A stretch of DNA of 64,000 bases from Streptomyces sp. NBC_01439 (GTDB taxonomy: Bacteria > Actinomycetota > Actinomycetes > Streptomycetales > Streptomycetaceae). Made by a program: the position numbers and the translations under genes. This document shows, piece after piece, positions 4,040 through 53,677 of this stretch. A model generated the notes under the pieces. The model was not told where the DNA came from, made no database searches, and worked only from the letters and a program-made list of their open reading frames with translations. The stretch's first letter is position 1. Each line of letters starts with the position of its first letter. The stretch lies in contig NZ_CP109487.1 in the NCBI RefSeq assembly GCF_036227605.1, positions 186,001 through 250,000 of the forward strand. Reading direction: 5' to 3'.

Positions 4040-4230
4040 TGACTGGACATCGACAAGAGGCACCACCACACGGTGGTGCTGAACGCCGGCAGTAGACGGC
4101 TGCTGTCCCGCCGCATCCTGAAGACCGACGCCCGCGACGCCATCGCCATCGCCATCGCCATCGCCATCGCCATCGCCATCGCCGACCAGGCTCGCATCCG
4201 CCGAGACGTCAGCAGGCCCGGCTCCCGGAG
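4040..4230 (+). pseudogene. IS110-family transposase relic with internal deletion
   Basis: One frame reads LDIDKRHHHTVVLNAGSRR, then LLSRRILKTDARDA, a run of Ala-Ile, and ADQARIRRDV. The first part matches the N-terminus of IS110 transposases (D-I-G-K-x-H-H-H-x-V-V-L) and the second the KTDAKDA...IADQARxRRDL segment that normally lies roughly 60 residues further on. The middle, including part of the RuvC-like core, is therefore deleted in frame. No full start or 3' part remains. The region also carries the microsatellite at 4139-4182. Confidence 0.65.
4139..4182. repeat. Hexanucleotide microsatellite, seven tandem copies
   Basis: Seven perfect copies of CATCGC (4141-4182), flanked by a partial unit. 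Within the IS110 relic it encodes an Ala-Ile dipeptide run between KTDARD and ADQAR, where intact family members have only a short Ala/Ile/Val stretch. This points to slippage expansion after the element lost function. Confidence 0.9.
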
Positions 4231-4304
4231 CTGCACCGGCCCTGGAACGGGCGGCCCCATCCGAGGTGACGCCGTTCGTCCCCTCGGATGGGAGCGCTGT
4301 GGGA

Positions 4305-4994
4305 CTACTCGCCGCGCAGCGCGGCCAGGCGTTGCTCGAAGGACACCGTCGTGAATCCGTGGGTCGGGTCCACCGAGGTGATCGCCCCGGTCGATGAACG
4401 GGGCGCGATCGCAGCAGCGGTATCGACGTCGAGGGCCGCGTCCGGAACGGTGTCGAGGACCGTGCCGCGAATGGTGTTGGGGGTGGTGGGGCGCATGGAG
4501 CGGGCCAGTTCCGTGCCCGCGCGGGTGATCCGCCGCGCCAGGCCCGCTTCTCCCCAGTCCTGCGAGGCCGCGTACACGGCGGTGGGCAGGACCAGTGCGC
4601 GCAGGTGGGTGAAGAGCGGGCGCATGGCGTGCTCGGTGACCAGGCTGTGTCGGGCGGTGCCGCCTGTCGCACCGAGGAGGACGGGGGTGCCGGTGAGGGC
4701 GTCCTTGTCGATGAGGTCGAAGAACGACTTGAACAGGCCGCTGTAGGAGGCTGCGAAGACCGGCGTGACGGCGATCAGGCCGTCCGCGCCCGCCACCGCG
4801 TCGAGTGCGGCGGCCAGTGGGGCGGGCGGGAAGCCGGTGACGAGGTGTTGGGCGATCTGGGTCGCCAGTTCCCGCACTTCGATGACCTCGGGTTCGGCGT
4901 CCAGGTGGCCGAGGGTCTCGGCCGTGAGCCGGTCGGCGAGCAGGCGCGTGGAGGAGGGTGAGCTCAGTCCTGCCGATACGACGACGAGTTTCAT
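4305..4994 (-). CDS. NADPH-dependent FMN reductase (CE1759-type)
   Basis: A 229-residue flavodoxin-fold protein from ATG 4994. It opens with MKLVVVSAGLSSPSSTRLLA, the phosphate-binding loop of NADPH:FMN reductases. GLIAVTPVFAASYSGLFKSF matches the conserved P-x-Y/F-x-x-S-x-x-x-x-K-x-F motif, and LLGATGG follows. The start overlaps the stop of the upstream luciferase-like monooxygenase by 4 bp, so the two are translationally coupled. The reductase most likely supplies reduced FMN to that partner. This two-gene arrangement is common in actinobacteria. Confidence 0.88.
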   Translation of the reverse strand: MKLVVVSAGLSSPSSTRLLADRLTAETLGHLDAEPEVIEVRELATQIAQHLVTGFPPAPLAAALDAVAGADGLIAVTPVFAASYSGLFKSFFDLIDKDALTGTPVLLGATGGTARHSLVTEHAMRPLFTHLRALVLPTAVYAASQDWGEAGLARRITRAGTELARSMRPTTPNTIRGTVLDTVPDAALDVDTAAAIAPRSSTGAITSVDPTHGFTTVSFEQRLAALRGE

Positions 4995-6091
4995 GCCTGC
5001 GTCTCCTGCTGGGGGGCCTGTCGGGCGGCCGCCACACGGTCGGGGTGAGTCGGGGCGTCCGGTACGCCGGCCGGGCGCAGGTTCGCGAACTCCTTGCGCA
5101 GGACGGGTACGACCTCTTCGCCAAGGAGGTCGAGCTGTTCCAAGACGGTCTTCAGGGGCAGGCCCGCGTGGTCCATCAGGAACAGTTGGCGCTGGTAGTC
5201 GCCGGCGTAGTCACGGAAGGACAGGGTGCGTTCGATGACCTGCTGGGGCGAGCCGACGGTCAGAGGTGTCTGGGAGGTGAACTCTTCCAGGGAGGGGCCG
5301 TGACCGTACACGGGCGCGTTGTCGAAGTAGGGGCGGAACTCGCTTACTGCTTCCTGGGAGTTCTTGCGCATGAACACCTGGCCGCCGAGTCCGACGATGG
5401 CCTGCTCGGGGGTGCCGTGTCCGTAGTGGGCGTAGCGCTCCCGGTACAGGTTGATCATCTGCTCGGTGTGGGAAGCGGGCCAGAAGATGTTGTTGTGGAA
5501 GAAGCCGTCGCCGTAGTAGGCGGCTTGTTCGGCTATCTCCGGGGAGCGGATGGAGCCGTGCCAGACGAAGGGCGCGACGCCGTCGAGGGGGCGCGGAGTG
5601 GAGGTGAAGGACTGGAGTGGGGTGCGGAATTTACCCTTCCAGGTGACGGTGTCCTCGTCCCACAGGCGGCGCAGCAGGGCGTAGTTCTCGATGGCGAGGT
5701 CGATGCCGTCGCGGATGTCCTTGCCGAACCAGGGGTAGACCGGTCCGGTGTTACCGCGGCCCATCATGAGGTCGACGCGACCGTCCGCGACGTGCTGGAG
5801 CATCGCGAAGTCCTCGGCGATCTTCACCGGGTCGTTGGTGGTGATCAGCGTCGTCGAGGTGGACAGGATCAGGTTCTCGGTGCGTGCGGCGATGTAGCCG
5901 AGCATCGTGGTCGGCGAGGAGGGGACGAACGGCGGGTTGTGGTGCTCTCCGGTGGCGAAGACGTCGAGGCCGACTTCTTCGGCCTTCTGCGCGATGGCGA
6001 GCATCGCCTTGATGCGCTCGTGCTCGCCCGGCACGCGTCCGGTCGTCGGGTCGGCCGTAACGTCACCGACGGTGAAGATCCCGAACTGCAT
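4991..6091 (-). CDS. Luciferase-like FMN-dependent monooxygenase (CE1758-type)
   Basis: A 366-residue TIM-barrel flavin monooxygenase from ATG 6091. Family hallmarks are MQFGIFTVGD at the start, FATGEHHNPPF near residue 45, STSTTLITTNDPVKIAEDFA, and GRVDLMMGRGNTGPVYPWFG. It oxygenates a small organic substrate using reduced FMN from the coupled reductase downstream. The substrate cannot be told from sequence. A palindromic site just upstream (6113-6132) suggests control by a MarR-type repressor, but no such gene lies next to it. Confidence 0.9.
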   Translation of the reverse strand: MQFGIFTVGDVTADPTTGRVPGEHERIKAMLAIAQKAEEVGLDVFATGEHHNPPFVPSSPTTMLGYIAARTENLILSTSTTLITTNDPVKIAEDFAMLQHVADGRVDLMMGRGNTGPVYPWFGKDIRDGIDLAIENYALLRRLWDEDTVTWKGKFRTPLQSFTSTPRPLDGVAPFVWHGSIRSPEIAEQAAYYGDGFFHNNIFWPASHTEQMINLYRERYAHYGHGTPEQAIVGLGGQVFMRKNSQEAVSEFRPYFDNAPVYGHGPSLEEFTSQTPLTVGSPQQVIERTLSFRDYAGDYQRQLFLMDHAGLPLKTVLEQLDLLGEEVVPVLRKEFANLRPAGVPDAPTHPDRVAAARQAPQQETQA

Positions 6092-6112
6092 GACTTCCCA
6101 TCCCCTTCCAAG

Positions 6113-11801: not shown

Positions 11802-12332
11802 TCAGGTGGTGGGCGGGGTCCAGTCGGCAGGCAGGCCGGACTGGGCGAGGACGGTGGCCAGGCTGTAGTGATCCTGATCAGAAGCGATCCGGCAGTGATT
11901 CTCGTCCAAGACGAGCTCCGTGGTCATCGGCACGGCGAAGGGCTTGGGCGCACCCTTGAGATGACCGGAATACACGGCCCGAACCGTGATGCGGTCGCCA
12001 TCGAGACGGGTCGTACGGATGGTGACATGGACGTTGTCGATGAGAGCGTCAGCACGAGCCTTCCACCCCGCGATCTCCTTGCGCCCACGGAAAGTGGCAC
12101 CGACGGCTTCGTCGGAATAGGTGCCATCAACGGTGAACAGGGCACCCAAAGCCTGGGGGTCACTACCGTTCCAAGCGCGGGCCCAAGCAACCGCGACACC
12201 CGACATGCGCCGACCATCATCCTGCCCAGCAGCAGAAGCAGCGGGAGCAGCAATAGCGGCGGTGGCAGCGGTGGCGCAGAGGGTAGCGGTGGCGGTCAAC
12301 ACAGTGAGGGTACGCAGCGCGCGGGACGTCAT
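11802..12332 (-). CDS. Secreted NTF2/SnoaL-like protein
   Basis: A 176-residue protein. I chose ATG 12332 because TTTGGAG precedes it and a clear signal peptide follows (MTSRALRTLTVLTATATLCA ... APAASAAGQ). The mature part is an NTF2-like alpha+beta barrel: AVAWARAWNGSDPQALGALF, TVDGTYSDEAVGATFRGRKE, a basic turn, then two long strands. Members of this fold bind small molecules or act as isomerases, and the secreted ones are mostly uncharacterised. It stands alone with no informative neighbours. Confidence 0.75.
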   Translation of the reverse strand: MTSRALRTLTVLTATATLCATAATAAIAAPAASAAGQDDGRRMSGVAVAWARAWNGSDPQALGALFTVDGTYSDEAVGATFRGRKEIAGWKARADALIDNVHVTIRTTRLDGDRITVRAVYSGHLKGAPKPFAVPMTTELVLDENHCRIASDQDHYSLATVLAQSGLPADWTPPTT

Positions 12333-47241: not shown

Positions 47242-48372
47242 TCATTCTCCCTTCTGGGTGATCATGTCGATCAGGCCGTGGGCCGTGTTGTCACCCGAGA
47301 AGATTTCGGAGAGTTCGACGCCTTCGAAAGTGACGGGGGCGGCGCTGCGGAGGAACATGGCCTGCTCGTACTCGGTGAGCGCGGCCTCGATGTCGTCGGG
47401 GTGTGCGGCTATTGCCTCGCCGAGTTCGGCGCCGTCGAGGAGGGCCAGGTTGGCGCCTTCGCCGTTCGGGGGCGCGAGGTGCGCCGCGTCACCGACCAGA
47501 GTCACTCCCGGTACCCGGTCCCACCGGTGCCCGGTCGGCAGGGCGTAGTGGGGGCGGAGGACCGGCGCCGTGTCGCCGTCGGTGATCAGGGCGGTGAGTT
47601 CCGGTGCCCAGCCGTCGAACTCGGCCGCGATCCGCGCGGTGGCGGCGGCGGCATCGGTGAAGTCGATGGCGGCGAACCAGTCCTGCGGCCTGGCCAGCGC
47701 CACGTAGGTGTGCAGGGTGTCGCCGCTTTCGCGGTGAGCGAAGATCTCCCTCCCCGGCGCGGGCGCGATCAGCATCCCGCCGCCCACCGCCTTCGCGGCG
47801 GCCGGGTGCCGGGTGTCGGCGTCGAACAGGTACGTCTCGACGAACGACGTGCCGGCGTACGCGGGTGTCGCGGTGGAGAGCAACGGCCGGATCCGTGACC
47901 ACGCGCCGTCCGCACCGACCAGCAGGCTGGTGGAGACGGTGCCGCCGTCGGCGAACGTCACCTCGTAGCGGCCCTCGCCGAGAGCCCGGGTACTGCTGGC
48001 CTTGTTCCCCCACCGGACGGTGCCGGCCGGGAGCGAGTCGAGCAGGATCCGGCGCAGTTCGCTGCGCTGCACCTCGGGGCGTCCGCCGGTGCCGTCGTCG
48101 GCCTTGTCGAGCAGGACGTTCCCGTCCGGGTCGAGGACCCGCATCGCCTGGCGGCCCTCGAGGACGATGGCGTGGAACTCGTTCATCAGGCCGGCTGCTT
48201 TGATGGCGAGTTGCCCGTTGTAGTCGTGGATGTCGAGCATCCCGCCCTGGGTGCGCGCCGCCGGGGAGGGCTCCGCCTCGTGGACCGTGACCGGGATTCC
48301 GTGGACGTGGAGGACGCGGGCCAGCGCGAGTCCGCCGAGTCCCGCGCCGATGATCGTGACGGGCGTGTGCAT
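47242..48372 (-). CDS. FAD-dependent monooxygenase, TetX-like
   Basis: A 376-residue class A flavoprotein from ATG 48372. It has the dinucleotide-binding motif TIIGAGLGGLALARVLHVHG, then EAEPSPAARTQGGMLDIHDY, the DG motif LLVGADGAWSRIRPLLS and the FAD ribityl motif TLVGDAAHLAPPNGEGANLA. The GGMLDIH segment and overall length resemble TetX-type tetracycline hydroxylases and related actinobacterial enzymes. It hydroxylates an aromatic or polyketide-like substrate with NADPH and oxygen. Resistance activity is possible but not shown. Confidence 0.88.
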   Translation of the reverse strand: MHTPVTIIGAGLGGLALARVLHVHGIPVTVHEAEPSPAARTQGGMLDIHDYNGQLAIKAAGLMNEFHAIVLEGRQAMRVLDPDGNVLLDKADDGTGGRPEVQRSELRRILLDSLPAGTVRWGNKASSTRALGEGRYEVTFADGGTVSTSLLVGADGAWSRIRPLLSTATPAYAGTSFVETYLFDADTRHPAAAKAVGGGMLIAPAPGREIFAHRESGDTLHTYVALARPQDWFAAIDFTDAAAATARIAAEFDGWAPELTALITDGDTAPVLRPHYALPTGHRWDRVPGVTLVGDAAHLAPPNGEGANLALLDGAELGEAIAAHPDDIEAALTEYEQAMFLRSAAPVTFEGVELSEIFSGDNTAHGLIDMITQKGE

Positions 48373-48826
48373 GATGGCTCCTTCGGGATCGGGCCGCCCG
48401 GCGTGCTCCGGGCGGCCGTCCCTCGAAAGGTGCCGGGCCCCGCCAACGAACTGCCGACATGTGACCGACAGCCCCCGATAGACGGCCGACACCGCGGCTC
48501 CGCCGCACGATCTGACGCGGATGTTCCGCGGGGTCCGAGGTGGCCGCGTGCGGCACGAACGGTGGCCCCGGTCCGCACCGCCGCCCTAGGGGGCCCGACG
48601 GCGACCGCCGCGGCGGGCTGGGGGCCGACTCGGAGCAGCGACCCGGTTCGCCACTGCCGGGTGGTCAGGAGCGGGCACTCGGCCGAGCCACACGGGTTCG
48701 CCGCGTCGATACGACGCGACTGCGCAGACCATCCCTTATCTTGCATTTTGTCGGGCAGGCTGGTTCGCGTCAGGCGCGTCAGCGCGCGGTCGGCTCGGCG
48801 GGCCCTCGACAGGCAGGAGCAGAGTC
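48373..48826. other. Divergent region before the oxidase operon
   Basis: About 450 bp between the divergent monooxygenase and the catalase-oxidase operon. An AT-richer stretch near 48733-48748 (CCCTTATCTTGCATTTTG) is the best candidate for the oxidase promoter. No gene seen. Confidence 0.45.
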
Positions 48827-51800
48827 ATGGCGGAGCGCCCCGAGGTGTCCGACGGCCCCGCGCAGCCACCTCCGCGCGACTGCGTCAACGAGCCGATCGC
48901 CGGGATCGTGGCCGAGTTCGTGGGCGAGCGGATGGGGGACCGCGTGGCCCAGGGGCAGGACCCCCTCCTGCGCCCGGTCTTCGCCAAGTTCCACGGTGCG
49001 GCCCGCGGCGTGCTGACGGTCGCCCCCGACCTGCCGCCCGAGCTCCGCATCGGTTTCCTCGAAGCCGCGGCGGACCAAGGCGGGCTGACCGCCTGGGTGC
49101 GCGTCTCCAGCGACACCCAGCCGGAGCGGCCGGACCTACGCAGGACCGTTGGGTGGGGCATCAAGCTGTTCGGCGTGCCCGGGCCGAAGCTGCTGCAGGA
49201 CGACACCCGGGCCGACACCCAGGACCTCGTGCTGCAGAACCATGACGTCTTCTTCGTCGACACGGCCCGGGACATGTGCGAGTTCCAGCTGGACCCGGCC
49301 GTGTACCAGCAACAACACCCCCTCACCCGGCAGATCCTCACGGACATGCGCAAGCCCGTCGAGAGCACGCTCACGTCGACGTACTGGGGCGTGCTGCCGT
49401 ACTCGTTCGGACCGGACCGGCACGTGAAGTACAAGCTCGCCCCGGCCGGCTGCGCGGACGGCGACCCCCGGGCGACACCGCCGGACGAAGACCCCTCCTT
49501 CCTGCGCGGGGACCTGCACCACCGGCTGGCCGCCGGCCCGGCCGCCTTCGACCTGCTGCTCCAGTTCCGGACGGACCCGGACCGGATGCCGCTGGACCGG
49601 GCCACCGTGCGCTGGGAGGAGGGCGAGAGCGCGCCCGTGAAGGTGGCGACGCTGACCCTGCATCAGCAGGACACGACCGCACGGGGGCAGGAGGAGTACG
49701 GGGACAACCTCGCTTTCAACCCCTGGCACGGCCTGTCGGAACACCGGCCCGTCGGCAGCATCGCGGAGGCCCGCAAGGTCGTCTACCACGCGGCGGCGGC
49801 CCGGCGGCGCGACGCCAACGGCACTCCGGCGGCCGAACCCGGTCCCGCACGGCCGGCGGGTACCGAACCGCACGGACGCGACACCCGGATCGTACGGGCC
49901 GCCGTGCACCCGGCGATCGGGGTGGCCAGGGTCGGCGACAGCGCGGAGGAGTTCTTCCTCGCCCCGGAGGTCGACGGGGCTCCCCCACCAGCCACCGGCA
50001 CGTACAAGGACGCGAGGGGCGCGCTCAAGCGGCAGGCCGTCCGGTTCCGGGTGTACGGCTACAACGCCGCGGGCGAGGCGGTTGCCGAGCTGACGGCGGA
50101 CAACGCCGACCTGCGCTGGACCGTGGAGGTGGCCAACAAGAAGGCCGCCTGGTACCAGTTCCAGCTGGCACTGGACATCCCCGAGGCGGCACAGGCCCCC
50201 GCGACCACGCTGCGCAACCTCACCACGGTGCCCGCCGGGGAGCGACACCGGCTGGCCATCACACCCGGGCGCCGCTCGATCCGGGGCCGCGACCGCGCGG
50301 GGAAGCCCGAGTACGCCTTCGACTCGGGCACGTTCCTTGGGCACCCCGTCTACCTGGGCGAGCTGCGCACCGATGGCGCCGGCCGCCTGCTCTTCCTCGG
50401 CGGACGCGGCGTGTCCGCCTCGTACCCCACCGCCCAGGCGACGCACTTCGCCAACAACGACGGCTGGCACGACGACACCTGCGACGGCCCGGTCACCGCG
50501 CAGGTCCGCATCGACGGCAGGGACGTCCCGGTCGATCCGGCCTGGGTGGTGGTCGCTCCCCCGAACTTCGCACCGGAGCTGAAGTCGGTGCGCACGATGT
50601 ACGACCTGATGTACGACACCTTCGTGGGTGCGGGCATGCTGGCACCCCCGGAGCGGGTCTCGTTCACCCACGACGTGCTACCGGTGCTGCGCCGCCTGTG
50701 CGAGCTGCAGTGGGTCAACCGCGGCATCGCGGCCCTGTTCGGGCACGGTGGGCGCGAGCACTTCCTGGCCCCCGAGCGACTGGCGGAGCTGGCCGGCCAC
50801 GGCGCCCGGCGCGACGAACTGCGCCGGCAGATCTGGGCGATGATGCGGGATCCCGACCGCGACGGGCTCTCCCCCGTGCCCTGGCCGCCGATCTACGGCG
50901 ACTCGATGAGCGTGCGACCGGTCTCCGCCCGGCAGCACCTGGCGCTCTCCCCGTTGCAGTACGGCATGCTCGCCCGCTGGGCCGCCGGGGACTTCGACGC
51001 CGACCACGATCCACGGGCCGCACCGCCCGCGGCGCTCGACGGCCTACCGCTCGCGCAGCGCCCCGCGGCCCTCGACCGGGCCGCCCTGTCCTACTGCCTG
51101 GCCGACGCCTTCCACCCCGGCTGCGAGCTCACCTGGCCGATGCGTCACGCCACCTTGTACTCCGCACCCTTCCGCGTGCGCCACCGCGACCCCGCCCGGC
51201 CCGAACCCGATTACGGCTCCACGCTCACCCCGCAGACGGCGCTCGGCCTCGACGGTCCGGTGTACGCCCAGGAGCCGGGCGGTCTGACCCGCTGGATGGC
51301 CGTGCCCTGGCAGACCGACACCGCCCGCTGCCGCTCCGGTTACTACTTGGGCTTCGGGCCGCGGTACGACCCGTACCTGCCCACCTTCTGGCCGGCACGG
51401 GTGCCCAACCACGTGTTGACGGAGGAGAACTACCGGACCGCCATCGACCCGGCCGCCGACCCCGAGGACCGTCGCACCGCCTTCGAGGACAGGGCGGTGT
51501 GGGACAGGTGGCTGCCGTCCGACCGCATCGCCCAGATGAACGCCATGGTCAAGGACTTCGGCAAGCTCGGCATCGTCGCACGGCGGGAGGGCCCGGCCGC
51601 CGACGACGGTAGTGACTCCGGCTCAAGCGACGGCTCAAGCGACGGCTCCGGCCCCAGTGACGTGGTGAGTCTCCCCGCAACGATGCTGGTGGAGTCAGAG
51701 GTGAGCTTCCATCCCGAACAGGCTCCGCCCCCGCTGCGGAACCTCGTGTGCCTGCACGTGCCCGAGGCCGCCGATCCCGCGGTGCGGGAGGAAGCGGTGG

Positions 51801-51889
51801 CCGCCGCCATCGCCGCTGCCGGCCGGCCGGACGGGGAGGTGCTGGCGGGGTACTTCGAGAAGGTCGCCCGCTTCCCGGAGGCGCCGTGA
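48827..51889 (+). CDS. lodA: Catalase-related domain fused to LodA-type CTQ amino-acid oxidase
   Basis: A 1020-residue protein from ATG 48827. Residues about 20-330 are a catalase-related haem domain: RPVFAKFHGAARGVL with the distal His56, GWGIKLFGVPGPKLL, TQDLVLQNHDVFFV, NPWHGLSEHRPVGSIAEARK and VVYHAA with proximal Tyr320. After a Pro/Gly linker, residues about 355-1020 match LodA/GoxA quinoproteins (VRAAVHPAIGVARVGDSAEE at the start, HPGCELTWPMRHATLYSAPF, LTRWMAVPWQTDTARCRSGY). Cys766 and Trp828 are the likely cysteine tryptophylquinone pair. LodA relatives oxidise the epsilon-amine of Lys or the alpha-amine of Gly, releasing ammonia and hydrogen peroxide. The fused domain probably handles that peroxide. 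No signal peptide is seen. Confidence 0.9.
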   Translation: MAERPEVSDGPAQPPPRDCVNEPIAGIVAEFVGERMGDRVAQGQDPLLRPVFAKFHGAARGVLTVAPDLPPELRIGFLEAAADQGGLTAWVRVSSDTQPERPDLRRTVGWGIKLFGVPGPKLLQDDTRADTQDLVLQNHDVFFVDTARDMCEFQLDPAVYQQQHPLTRQILTDMRKPVESTLTSTYWGVLPYSFGPDRHVKYKLAPAGCADGDPRATPPDEDPSFLRGDLHHRLAAGPAAFDLLLQFRTDPDRMPLDRATVRWEEGESAPVKVATLTLHQQDTTARGQEEYGDNLAFNPWHGLSEHRPVGSIAEARKVVYHAAAARRRDANGTPAAEPGPARPAGTEPHGRDTRIVRAAVHPAIGVARVGDSAEEFFLAPEVDGAPPPATGTYKDARGALKRQAVRFRVYGYNAAGEAVAELTADNADLRWTVEVANKKAAWYQFQLALDIPEAAQAPATTLRNLTTVPAGERHRLAITPGRRSIRGRDRAGKPEYAFDSGTFLGHPVYLGELRTDGAGRLLFLGGRGVSASYPTAQATHFANNDGWHDDTCDGPVTAQVRIDGRDVPVDPAWVVVAPPNFAPELKSVRTMYDLMYDTFVGAGMLAPPERVSFTHDVLPVLRRLCELQWVNRGIAALFGHGGREHFLAPERLAELAGHGARRDELRRQIWAMMRDPDRDGLSPVPWPPIYGDSMSVRPVSARQHLALSPLQYGMLARWAAGDFDADHDPRAAPPAALDGLPLAQRPAALDRAALSYCLADAFHPGCELTWPMRHATLYSAPFRVRHRDPARPEPDYGSTLTPQTALGLDGPVYAQEPGGLTRWMAVPWQTDTARCRSGYYLGFGPRYDPYLPTFWPARVPNHVLTEENYRTAIDPAADPEDRRTAFEDRAVWDRWLPSDRIAQMNAMVKDFGKLGIVARREGPAADDGSDSGSSDGSSDGSGPSDVVSLPATMLVESEVSFHPEQAPPPLRNLVCLHVPEAADPAVREEAVAAAIAAAGRPDGEVLAGYFEKVARFPEAP

Positions 51890-53031
51890 CCGCTCGGACC
51901 GGCCCGGTTCCCCTCACCGGGCGGTTCGAGGCCGTCGTGGCCGGGGGCGGCCCGGCCGGGGCCGTCGCCGCTCTGGTCCTGGCCCGGGCCGGCCGACACG
52001 TCCTGCTGGTGGACGGGGGCCCGTCGGGCGCGGCCTCCGCCGCCTTCACGATCGGCGAGACCCTGCCGCCCGCGGCCCGGCCGCTCCTGCACGATCTGGG
52101 GCTCTCGTCCGCCTTCGCCTCCGACGCGCACCTGAGCTGCCCGGGTACCGAGGCGTCCTGGGGATCCGTCCAGTTGCACGGCCACAGCCACCTGTTCGAC
52201 CCGCACGGCCACGGTTGGCACCTCGACCGTGCCCGTTTCGACGCCTCGCTGCGCGAGGCCGCGGTGGCCGCGGGCGCACTGATCCGGCGGGCCGTCGTGA
52301 TCGGCCACTGCAGCGCGGTCGGGGAGCAGCACCTTCTGGTACGGGAGCGGGGCGGCAGCGTGCGGGAGGTGCGTTCCCGTTGGGTCGTGGACGCGACCGG
52401 CCGCCGGGCCCTGATCGGCCGCCGTCTGGCCCGGCGCCGCCGGCAGGACCGCCTCGTGGCCGCGTTCGCGCTGCTCGGCGCGTGCGGGGCGGACGGTCAC
52501 CCCGGAGACCTGGAACTGCGCACCCTCGTCGAGGCGGTGCCCGAGGGCTGGTGGTACACCGCCAGGGTCCCCGCCGGGCGGGTGGTCGCCCATCTCACCG
52601 ACGCCGACCTCGCCCCTGCCGGGCTGCGCACCGCGGACGGGTTCCGGTGCGCGGCGGCCCGTACCCGGCACGTACGGGACCGCCTGAGCGGGTACGACCC
52701 GGCCGACTCCCCCGCGCCGCACTGGACGGCCGCCCACGGACTGCGGCTGTCCCCGCCGGTCGGCCCCGGATGGGTCGCCGCCGGGGACGCCGCGATCGCC
52801 TTCGACCCCCTGTCCTCCCAGGGCATCCTCACGGCCCTGCACGCCGGGGCCCGCGCCGGCCGGGCCGTCGACCGGTGCCTGGCCGGCGACACGGGCGCCC
52901 TCGCGTCCTACGTCTCGTTCCTGGACGGCGTCGCGGACGCCTACCACCACCATCACGCGCAGTCCTACGCCGAGGAGCGGCGGTGGCCGGCGCACCCGTT
53001 CTGGCGCCGCCGGAACGGGTGGCGGCACTGA
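51886..53031 (+). CDS. lodB: LodB-like FAD protein required for CTQ formation
   Basis: A 381-residue flavoprotein from GTG 51886, overlapping the LodA stop (GTGA). It has FEAVVAGGGPAGAVAALVLA (FAD pyrophosphate loop), TIGETLPPAARPLLHDLGL, VVDATGRRALIGRRLAR and the second FAD motif GWVAAGDAAIAFDPLSSQGI. This is the tryptophan-halogenase/geranylgeranyl-reductase-like family to which LodB belongs. LodB is needed to hydroxylate the Trp that becomes the cysteine tryptophylquinone cofactor of its LodA, so tight coupling fits its maturation role. Confidence 0.9.
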   Translation: MTARTGPVPLTGRFEAVVAGGGPAGAVAALVLARAGRHVLLVDGGPSGAASAAFTIGETLPPAARPLLHDLGLSSAFASDAHLSCPGTEASWGSVQLHGHSHLFDPHGHGWHLDRARFDASLREAAVAAGALIRRAVVIGHCSAVGEQHLLVRERGGSVREVRSRWVVDATGRRALIGRRLARRRRQDRLVAAFALLGACGADGHPGDLELRTLVEAVPEGWWYTARVPAGRVVAHLTDADLAPAGLRTADGFRCAAARTRHVRDRLSGYDPADSPAPHWTAAHGLRLSPPVGPGWVAAGDAAIAFDPLSSQGILTALHAGARAGRAVDRCLAGDTGALASYVSFLDGVADAYHHHHAQSYAEERRWPAHPFWRRRNGWRH

Positions 53032-53125
53032 CCCGGAGGGCGACGGTCGGGGTCCGCGCGACGTTCCGTGCGCATCGGCACTCCCGGTGCTCACGGAAAC
53101 CGGCGAGGTGACACCATGCGGTGTC

Positions 53126-53677
53126 ATGGCAGAGGACAACACCCATGCGTTTCAGGCGGGCCAGACGGGGCTCATCGTTCGGATCCCGGAGGCGGAGCCG
53201 TCCGTCCGCAGGTGGCGTGAGCGGCTCGACCCCTCGGCCCGGGCCGGGGTTCCGGCCCATGTCACCGTGCTCTTCCCGTTCCTCCACGAGAGCCGCGTGG
53301 ACGGGCTCGTCCACTGCGCCCTCGCGGACGTGCTGGGCCGGCAGCCCGCCTTCGACCTGCGGTTCGAGAAGTGTGGGCGGCTCCCGGACGTGCTGTATCT
53401 CGTACCTGAGCCGGACACGCAGTTGCGTCGGCTCACGGAGGCGATCGCCGGTCGTTGGCCCGAGGCTCCTCCGTACGGCGGCCGATTTGCCGAGGTCGTG
53501 CCGCACCTGACCATTGCTCAAGGCCAGGAAGACAGCCTCCTGGAGGAGATCGAGACCGACCTCGCGGTCAGACTCCCGTTCACCTCCCGCGTCTCCTCGG
53601 TCGAGCTCATGGTGCACGACGGGACGAAGTGGCAGGAACGGGCGTCGTTCGCGCTCGGAGAACGACGCCGGCCCTGA
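53126..53677 (+). CDS. 2'-5' RNA ligase-like 2H phosphoesterase
   Basis: A 183-residue protein. ATG 53126 is taken; GTG 53108 is possible. The paired HxT/Sx motifs of the 2H superfamily are present: PAHVTVLFPFLHESRVDG and PHLTIAQGQEDSLLEEIETD. Between them lies DLRFEKCGRLPDVLYLVPEP, as in the YjcG/ThpR-like two-lobed fold. It acts on 2',5'- or cyclic phosphodiesters of RNA or nucleotides. Physiological substrate unknown; no RNA-repair partner nearby. Confidence 0.85.
   Translation: MAEDNTHAFQAGQTGLIVRIPEAEPSVRRWRERLDPSARAGVPAHVTVLFPFLHESRVDGLVHCALADVLGRQPAFDLRFEKCGRLPDVLYLVPEPDTQLRRLTEAIAGRWPEAPPYGGRFAEVVPHLTIAQGQEDSLLEEIETDLAVRLPFTSRVSSVELMVHDGTKWQERASFALGERRRP

Follow-up and report, generated by a model that had tools for sequence, protein, structure and literature searches.

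A catalase-related domain with an altered predicted haem site paired with a LodA/GoxA-type quinoprotein oxidase in Streptomyces and other bacteria

Introduction

Fusions of a catalase-related domain (pfam00199) to a LodA-like oxidase are not new. The architecture has been in print since 2015, when 21 such proteins, described as uncharacterised and including Streptomyces afghaniensis STAFG_1983 and S. purpureus StrpuDRAFT_3616, were tabulated by Campillo-Brocal et al. (PMC4417212, Table 3, group III). A literature search found no characterised member of this fusion family since 2015. A preliminary description of the locus examined here knew of no characterised fusion of the kind; the fusion itself had already been described, as an uncharacterised one.

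For the oxidase part, the closest described proteins are LodA, a lysine epsilon-oxidase (2ymw/3weu), and GoxA, a glycine oxidase (6byw). They have in common with the protein examined here their sequence kinship, the positions of the Cys and Trp of the cysteine tryptophylquinone (CTQ), an active-site Asp and a flavin maturase, but their matches leave out its catalase-related domain. For the haem part, the solved chain 3e4w, which we take to be MAP-2744c, and the coral allene oxide synthase (cAOS; 1u5u, 3dy5) are likewise small catalase-related haem proteins. The coral lipoxygenases are peroxide makers fused to a catalase-related domain, and cAOS sits ahead of the lipoxygenase (PMC5617202) just as the haem domain sits ahead of the oxidase here. 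The partners differ in that the cAOS system involves a lipid hydroperoxide, whereas the amine oxidase would be expected to release H2O2.

The fusion gene and its product

The window is a 64,000 nt stretch of Streptomyces sp. NBC_01439 (NZ_CP109487.1); all coordinates are positions in this window and all features are on the forward strand. One open frame (48827–51889), preceded by a ribosome-binding-like AGGAG (48815–48819) that 7 bases separate from the ATG at 48827, encodes a protein of 1020 aa that carries both parts, as the preliminary description had claimed, and its make-up is indicated by Pfam matches, PDB matches and relatives. The catalase-related haem domain is N-terminal (approximately residues 1–345, 48827–49861), delimited by the match to 3e4w and by profile alignment to catalases and to catalase-related proteins from Acinetobacter. 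The LodA/GoxA-type oxidase follows, with a LodA_N region (PF17990; residues 361–576, 49907–50554) and a LodA_C region (PF18417; residues 693–839, 50903–51343) that score 278.5 and 134.8 bits, respectively, against Pfam cut-offs of 26.3 and 25 bits. The domain order, the size (~1000 aa) and the family are those of the fusions of Campillo-Brocal et al. (PMC4417212). As the N terminus includes no strong hydrophobic stretch (best 12-residue mean of 1.2), export of the fusion protein via a signal peptide is unlikely.

The oxidase stop codon and the GTG start codon of a gene for a 381 aa GoxB/LodB-like flavoprotein maturase (51886–53031) are joined in a 4-base overlap, GTGA, at 51886. The product matches GoxB, LodB and QhpG models, the best score being 262.3 bits, and the coupled maturase noted earlier is thus borne out. 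The scores against the GoxB and LodB maturase equivalogs (262.3 and 179.1 bits) are under the cut-off of 400 for each, but assignment as a maturase, which rests on the position beside the oxidase and on resemblance, holds as a prediction despite these scores. The fusion protein is also under the cut-offs of the GoxA glycine oxidase equivalog NF038173 (429.7 bits, cut-off 750) and the LodA lysine oxidase equivalog NF038172 (197.5 bits, cut-off 600).

The quinone site

In the alignment with LodA, Cys516 and Trp581, the CTQ residues, correspond to Cys835 (51329–51331) and Trp855 (51389–51391), each of which is found in 80 of the 81 readable rows of 84, and Asp678 of GoxA, named in PMC7876137, aligns with Asp831 (51317–51319). 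C835 and W855 are thus the CTQ pair of the oxidase domain by alignment, and the quinone itself is predicted. Cys766 and Trp828, proposed earlier as the tryptophylquinone pair, were both misassigned, as the LodA residues align elsewhere. The C766 column is not constant, with Ile in 8 of the 78 readable oxidase rows, and its counterpart in GoxA is V586 (position counted by hand from the printed alignment ends).

The haem site

The N-terminal 348 aa match 3e4w (E 1.9e-6), and PF00199 (threshold 25 bits) was not reported for residues 1–345 at E values up to 10, nor for the whole protein. Conservation was examined in a clade of haem domains delimited by a score line of 330 bits, set after a gap in the scores was seen, with rows of fewer than 220 aligned columns dropped. 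Because the rows were fetched with clade sequences, what defines the clade is resemblance to proteins that already carry F52 and D96. Rows from three genome samples, together with Acinetobacter proteins, L080 and short proteins, served as the outgroup.

The residues predicted to bind haem are retained, namely R49, R92, R327, Y320, R316, N138 and S94. The proximal ligand Tyr320 (49784–49786; 301 of 301 clade rows) is preceded by Arg316 at four residues and followed by Arg327 at seven; it is covered by the alignments to the outgroup and to 3e4w, the alignment to true catalases ending ahead of it. Tyr320 had been named in the preliminary description and fits, being present in 118 of the 118 full-length fused relatives (121 rows). 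The Tyr with an Arg four residues before it, the three propionate Arg (R49, R92 and R327) and the distal Asn of monofunctional catalases, here Asn138 (49238–49240; 306/309 clade rows, the exceptions being P0172, P0212 and P0195), are all present, as are the distal Ser94 (297/307) and the channel phenylalanines F142 (309/309) and F143 (80 of 80 readable rows). The R, Y, N and S are of the kinds named for catalase and cAOS (PMC9687031, PMC5617202). Thr107 (300/308) and Gln137 (306/309) are also conserved. The conservation of these residues, like that of the quinone site, is observed directly, and from it haem binding is predicted.

Two positions set the domain apart from monofunctional catalases, which have the distal His and a channel Val where it has Phe and Asp. 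Alignments to 3e4w and to catalases place Phe52 (48980–48982) at the distal His position, and the residue is F in all 304 distinct haem-clade sequences with a letter there, versus His in 52 and F in one of 59 catalase-related outgroup rows. The distal His is kept in 3e4w (RALH) and in cAOS (H67; PMC5617202). The cAOS pair T66-H67 is not found in the window domain, which has V51-F52 there by the catalase alignment, the printed match to cAOS itself beginning downstream of the distal motif; N138, the counterpart of cAOS N137, is present. At the position of the main-channel valine, profile alignment places Asp96 (49112–49114), which is D in 306 of 307 clade rows, P0205 having Glu, versus 3 of 60 outgroup rows.

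His56 (48992–48994), earlier taken for the distal His, sits instead in a separate conserved KxHG motif (H in 299/304 clade rows; absent from P0233, P0209, P0196, P0203 and P0219). When the Acinetobacter proteins were aligned directly by profile to catalases, the alignment began past their RxxH motif and put the KAHG His on a catalase tyrosine, which fits this assignment without itself placing the Acinetobacter RxxH. Two outgroup rows, L142 and L143, have D96 yet also the distal His, and P0126, which was counted in the outgroup although both F and D are present, probably belongs to the clade as a truncated sequence. The altered site suggests that the domain has a role other than simple peroxide destruction.

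Pairing of the haem unit and the oxidase

Of the best 80 loci (out of 157), which span ten phyla, 79 carry the haem unit either joined to the oxidase in one protein or encoded beside it. The same is true of 11 of 11 high-scoring places in the three genome samples, three of which are the sample centres, picked for having the pair; scoring of these samples took the best few candidates per genome. The pair was found in none of 76 low-scoring loci examined with flanks of ~1.5 kb, which represent part of the low-scoring places, are in some cases short (down to 1769 bases) and include genes that are not all distinct. In the ten split operons, the two genes lie side by side, and the first candidate start is 9 to 261 bases away. 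Maturase matches accompany 77 of the 80 loci, and the remaining three (L039, L050 and L053) run to a contig end. The loci were used unmended, L046 and L061 being frame-broken and L060 having the oxidase in two frames. In L086 (Streptomyces CB02009) there are haem and maturase matches and no oxidase match.

An obligatory pair is ruled out by three related oxidases, L234, L235 and L238, which have no haem unit alongside. Among the best few candidates per genome, no haem-unit match was listed for the L234 and L235 genomes, and the L238 genome gave nothing beyond low-scoring matches (up to 68.7 bits). Oxidases lacking the haem unit still keep C835, W855 and a maturase, and it follows from L234, L235 and L238 that the oxidase can do without the haem unit. 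The pairing is strong, yet not obligatory.

A conserved pathway context was also rejected, as no further neighbour is common to the loci: no Pfam family occurred in more than two of the 65 co-directional neighbours scanned. These were most of the plus-strand frames in a set of 166, which a longest-frame rule rather than a gene caller had selected at 43 of the 80 loci.

Phylogeny

Quick trees, in which long branches were flagged by the program, were built for the haem domains (with 20 hand-chosen outgroup rows; L046, L060, L061 and L086 left out) and for the oxidases (L039, L046, L050, L060 and L061 left out; no row for L086). A supported branch has the haem domains on a single side of it, whereas according to PMC4417212 the fusions do not group together within any subgroup of its oxidase tree. 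The available part of that paper neither analyses the haem site nor mentions a split operon, both of which are covered here. S. afghaniensis 772 (L087) and another strain of S. purpureus (L053) are among our loci and lie near the window protein in the haem tree. In the oxidase tree, a few unpartnered oxidases are nested among partnered ones. The split genes of Bacteroidota are nested among the fused ones in the haem tree, but the oxidase tree places them, together with L238, outside the fused ones, and because the two trees disagree fission is not claimed for all splits. The split pair of Moorena (L063) is the only one placed inside the fused cyanobacteria in both.

Possible roles of the haem domain

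The reading that we favour, though we give it slightly less than an even chance, is that the haem domain uses up the peroxide of the oxidase at a site that is peroxidase- or peroxygenase-like rather than that of a catalase. The maturase would make the C835-W855 cysteine tryptophylquinone in the C-terminal domain, which would then oxidise a primary amine, probably that of an amino acid, and give off hydrogen peroxide; the N-terminal catalase-fold domain, with its tyrosine-ligated haem, would consume this peroxide, though not as an ordinary catalase. With Phe52 replacing the distal His and Asp96 the channel valine, peroxide activation would need another acid-base group, either the substrate itself or Asp96, possibly assisted by His56; the proposal assumes that Asp96 or His56 may reach the haem. 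A second substrate would then be oxidised in a peroxidase- or peroxygenase-like manner. In favour are the retained haem-binding residues, F52 (304/304) and D96 (306/307) with their rarity in the outgroup, the pairing (79/80, and 11/11 against 0/76), the adjacency of the split pairs, the lack of any other shared neighbour and the fusion of catalase-related domains to peroxide makers of other kinds; against are L234, L235 and L238, which lack the haem unit, and the lack of conserved pathway genes pointing to a second reaction. A narrower and rather unlikely version is a self-fuelled peroxygenase, devoid of catalase activity after loss of the distal His, in which Asp96 and His56 would form an acid-base pair and the H2O2 of the fused quinone oxidase would be spent on the amine, its imine/keto product or another small molecule, giving a two-step oxidation by one protein in ten bacterial phyla.

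The fold of unspecific peroxygenases is unrelated to that of catalases, and we know of no tyrosine-ligated peroxygenase with a catalase fold. Unspecific peroxygenases employ an acidic distal residue and a basic one nearby (PMC13394420), and the window domain may, by analogy only, do likewise; their cysteine-ligated haem with a PCP motif (PMC13394420) was not found, the aligned ligand being Tyr320.

On-site detoxification, possible but on the unlikely side, would have the haem domain still dismute H2O2, at a rate below that of a true catalase and with His56 or Asp96 replacing the distal His, and so shield the oxidase inside the cell from the peroxide that it makes. The pairing with a probable peroxide maker, the improbability of signal-peptide export and the retention of F142 and F143 are all consistent with this. 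However, the distal His, essential in catalases (PMC9687031), is absent in 304 of 304 sequences, cAOS does not scavenge H2O2 even with its distal His (PMC5617202), and three full-length catalases and one catalase fragment are already encoded in the genome. Loss of the aligned distal His likewise weakens the earlier suggestion that an ordinary catalase detoxifies the peroxide on the spot. The same loss, together with the 79/80 pairing and the ten phyla, lends support to the central idea of the preliminary description, that a peroxide-making oxidase and a catalase-related haem domain act together and that chemistry other than that of a catalase is conceivable.

A haem domain that binds haem and serves as a structural, assembly or sensing module, with no peroxide chemistry, appears improbable. 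It would accord with loss of the canonical catalytic His and with absence of the whole unit from some related oxidases, but Asn138, Ser94, Asp96, Thr107 and Gln137 are nearly as conserved as Tyr320, which is more than a scaffold seems to need. Quite improbable is a part in making or tuning the quinone, or in taking electrons from it. The di-haem protein MauG, which has such a part for TTQ (PMC7876137), provides a precedent and the haem and quinone sites lie in one chain, but a maturase match accompanies 77 of the 80 loci, the other three being at a contig end, and relatives lacking the haem unit keep C835, W855 and the maturase.

If the altered distal pocket does work with H2O2, it would illustrate how a catalase fold can be redirected from removing peroxide to exploiting it, the oxidant being supplied by the same polypeptide. 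Catalase-related domains fused to animal-haem-peroxidase and lipoxygenase domains were also seen here. The haem half of the fusion is easily overlooked, as the precomputed Pfam annotation of the 120 relatives listed (of 1643 found) shows oxidase domains only. The name catalase has been given to a few of those listed (P0013, P0028).

Fusion gene and maturase gene

The fusion is real. A frame of 1020 residues (48827–51889, + strand) opens with an ATG that lies seven bases after an AGGAG, and its LodA_N (residues 361–576) and LodA_C (residues 693–839) domains both score far above the Pfam cut-offs. The first 345 residues gave nothing meaningful in Pfam, and residues 1–348 match a chain of known structure, 3e4w (E 1.9e-6; MAP-2744c of Mycobacterium avium). 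With a profile of 21 relatives, matches extend to catalases and the allene oxide synthase of corals. The linker to the oxidase is short (approximately residues 340–358). The maturase gene (51886–53031, 381 aa) starts with a GTG and has four bases in common with the oxidase gene at the stop of the latter; its product resembles GoxB, LodB and QhpG, with scores below their equivalog cut-offs. The window corresponds to positions 186001–250000 of a 9.58 Mb contig, and the best protein match to the fusion protein is from Streptomyces sp. NPDC001552 (95 % identity).

Upstream of the fusion gene, 47242–48492 (- strand) encodes an FAD monooxygenase for which Tet(X) is the best NCBIfam model, an identity that was rejected as 134.4 bits is far under the cut-off of 750. 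A 2'-5' RNA ligase family protein (PF13563, 96.5 bits) is encoded after the maturase gene at 53087–53677 (+ strand).

Fusions of this type are already published. Campillo-Brocal et al. (2015; PMC4417212) list 21 LodA-like proteins, approximately 960–1070 aa long, that begin with a pfam00199/cd08152 domain. All of them belong to group III, at that time a group without any characterised protein to those authors' knowledge. No later description of the fusion was found among titles and abstract openings of the open-access papers searched, though later work may exist, and catalase is unmentioned in the main text of PMC4699246 and PMC12605379. The fusion is uncharacterised as far as the literature searched shows. 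As far as our searches show, what is new is the predicted CTQ residues as corrected here for the window protein, the His-to-Phe and Val-to-Asp exchanges of the haem pocket, the operons with separate haem and oxidase genes, and the grouping of partnered haem domains in one clade.

The predicted quinone site

A CTQ site had been proposed in the preliminary description, and its presence is upheld by alignment, at C835 and W855. The pair originally named, C766–W828, is wrong because LodA C516, in FFNC516TIQT (3weu numbering, counted from the end of the printed alignment), aligns with TARC835RSG of the window protein by way of a relative (L104), LodA W581 in YWWPP aligns with TFW855PA, and C766 is kept in only 73 of 82 rows. 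C835 and W855 are each kept in 80 of the 81 readable rows (84 in total), the exceptions being among L046 and L060, two relatives with broken frames. GoxA Asp678 aligns with Asp831.

Pairing of the haem unit and the oxidase

A scan with the haem profile, using one genome per species, confirmed 157 stretches, and the best 80, among which ten phyla are named, were classified by reading their frames. The haem unit is fused and followed by a maturase gene in 64 of these 80 (including L060, where the oxidase lies in two frames), and is fused in three more that reach a contig end. Ten have a separate haem gene directly ahead of the oxidase gene, then the maturase gene (eight Bacteroidota, Herpetosiphon and Moorena). 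Two, L046 and L061, are frame-broken, and one, L086, lacks an oxidase match. In three whole-genome samples (398 Pseudomonadota, 244 of the phylum of Moorena and 297 of the window's family), the best-domain scores left a gap from 259.2 to 398.9 bits. An oxidase was present at 11 of the 11 places above this gap, three of them being the sample centres, versus none within approximately 1.5 kb at the 76 low-scoring loci. In the haem tree, 77 partnered domains are split from 20 outgroup rows by a branch with SH-aLRT 99.

At L239, above the gap, the order is oxidase, maturase, haem. The haem unit there (4192–6105) is extended at its C terminus by nearly 300 aa and is followed by an NPP1-family gene.

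Searching 299 Pseudomonadota genomes with LodA_N returned nine positive genomes. The oxidases at L234 and L235 were placed among the partnered oxidases in the tree and that at L238, on a long branch, beside the Bacteroidota group; none of the three has an adjoining haem unit. Hence, the haem unit can be absent or lost. Directly upstream of two more distant LodA-like oxidases is a PF12902 ferritin-like gene (L236:5363–6877 and L237:2681–4051), and pfam14518 fusions are reported in PMC4417212. Metal partners of other types therefore recur around CTQ oxidases, which is compatible with, and not proof of, a partner that handles oxygen or peroxide.

The putative haem site and its possible use of peroxide

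Haem-site residues were placed using HMMER against 3e4w and bacterial catalases, and by profile-profile alignment to 20 true catalases of the window's genome and relatives (E 7.9e-9) and to the catalase-related proteins encoded next to Acinetobacter loci (E 4.4e-49). In both HMMER and profile-profile alignments, the RxxH histidine of catalases falls on F52 of R49-P-V-F52, and not on His56, earlier taken to be the distal histidine. The Acinetobacter proteins carry the RxxH histidine plus a second, four residues later in KAHG, that matches His56, which is therefore a different residue. The 309 distinct sequences of the clade were compared with 61 relatives of lower score, counting rows with a letter at the position. 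Residue 52 is F in 304/304 of the clade versus H in 52/59 of the relatives, and residue 96 is D in 306/307 versus 3/60; Thr107, Phe115, Gln137, Met174, Asp257 and Tyr291 likewise distinguish the clade. Position 96 aligns with the V of RFSTV, a catalase motif; by its numbering, this valine is presumably the one that faces the channel gate. A catalase valine facing the gate phenylalanine is described in PMC9687031. As the clade keeps Tyr320, Asn138 and Ser94 along with the haem arginines and channel phenylalanines, the alignments argue for a haem site that lacks only its catalytic base and has gained an acidic residue nearby.

Characterised LodA-like members yield H2O2 and a deaminated product (PMC4417212). 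The window oxidase would form the same, and its H2O2 would be encountered by the haem domain. A catalase cycle appears unlikely there because the distal histidine is missing. This, together with the three full-length catalases in the genome, favours a peroxidase- or peroxygenase-like use of peroxide, a reading that we hold tentatively, at slightly less than an even chance. Asp96, perhaps helped by His56, may be the acid-base group for such use, by analogy with unspecific peroxygenases and their Glu-His pair (PMC13394420), though a specific Asp96–His56 peroxygenase is rather improbable.

Other catalase-related genes

A gene of Streptomyces roseoverticillatus (L080:4854–7790), directly upstream of a catalase-related–LodA fusion gene, encodes a catalase-related domain fused to an animal haem peroxidase (PF03098, 326.4 bits). 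L208, L210 and L212, from members of the window's family, encode similar proteins, and these short loci show no oxidase. Eight Acinetobacter loci (L020, L025, L026, L027, L030, L031, L045 and L082) carry a second catalase-related gene after the maturase gene, at 12211–13353 in L025; its product has a lipoprotein-like start and the RxxH and KxHG histidines. The catalase-related domains of L203, L204 and L185 have Asn in place of the distal histidine, and in L203 and L204 they follow an open-frame stretch of approximately 450–500 residues that matches no Pfam family. One frame from the phylum of Moorena (L190:1123–3597) combines a weak catalase-related match (46 bits) with a lipoxygenase match (PF00305, 42.8 bits).
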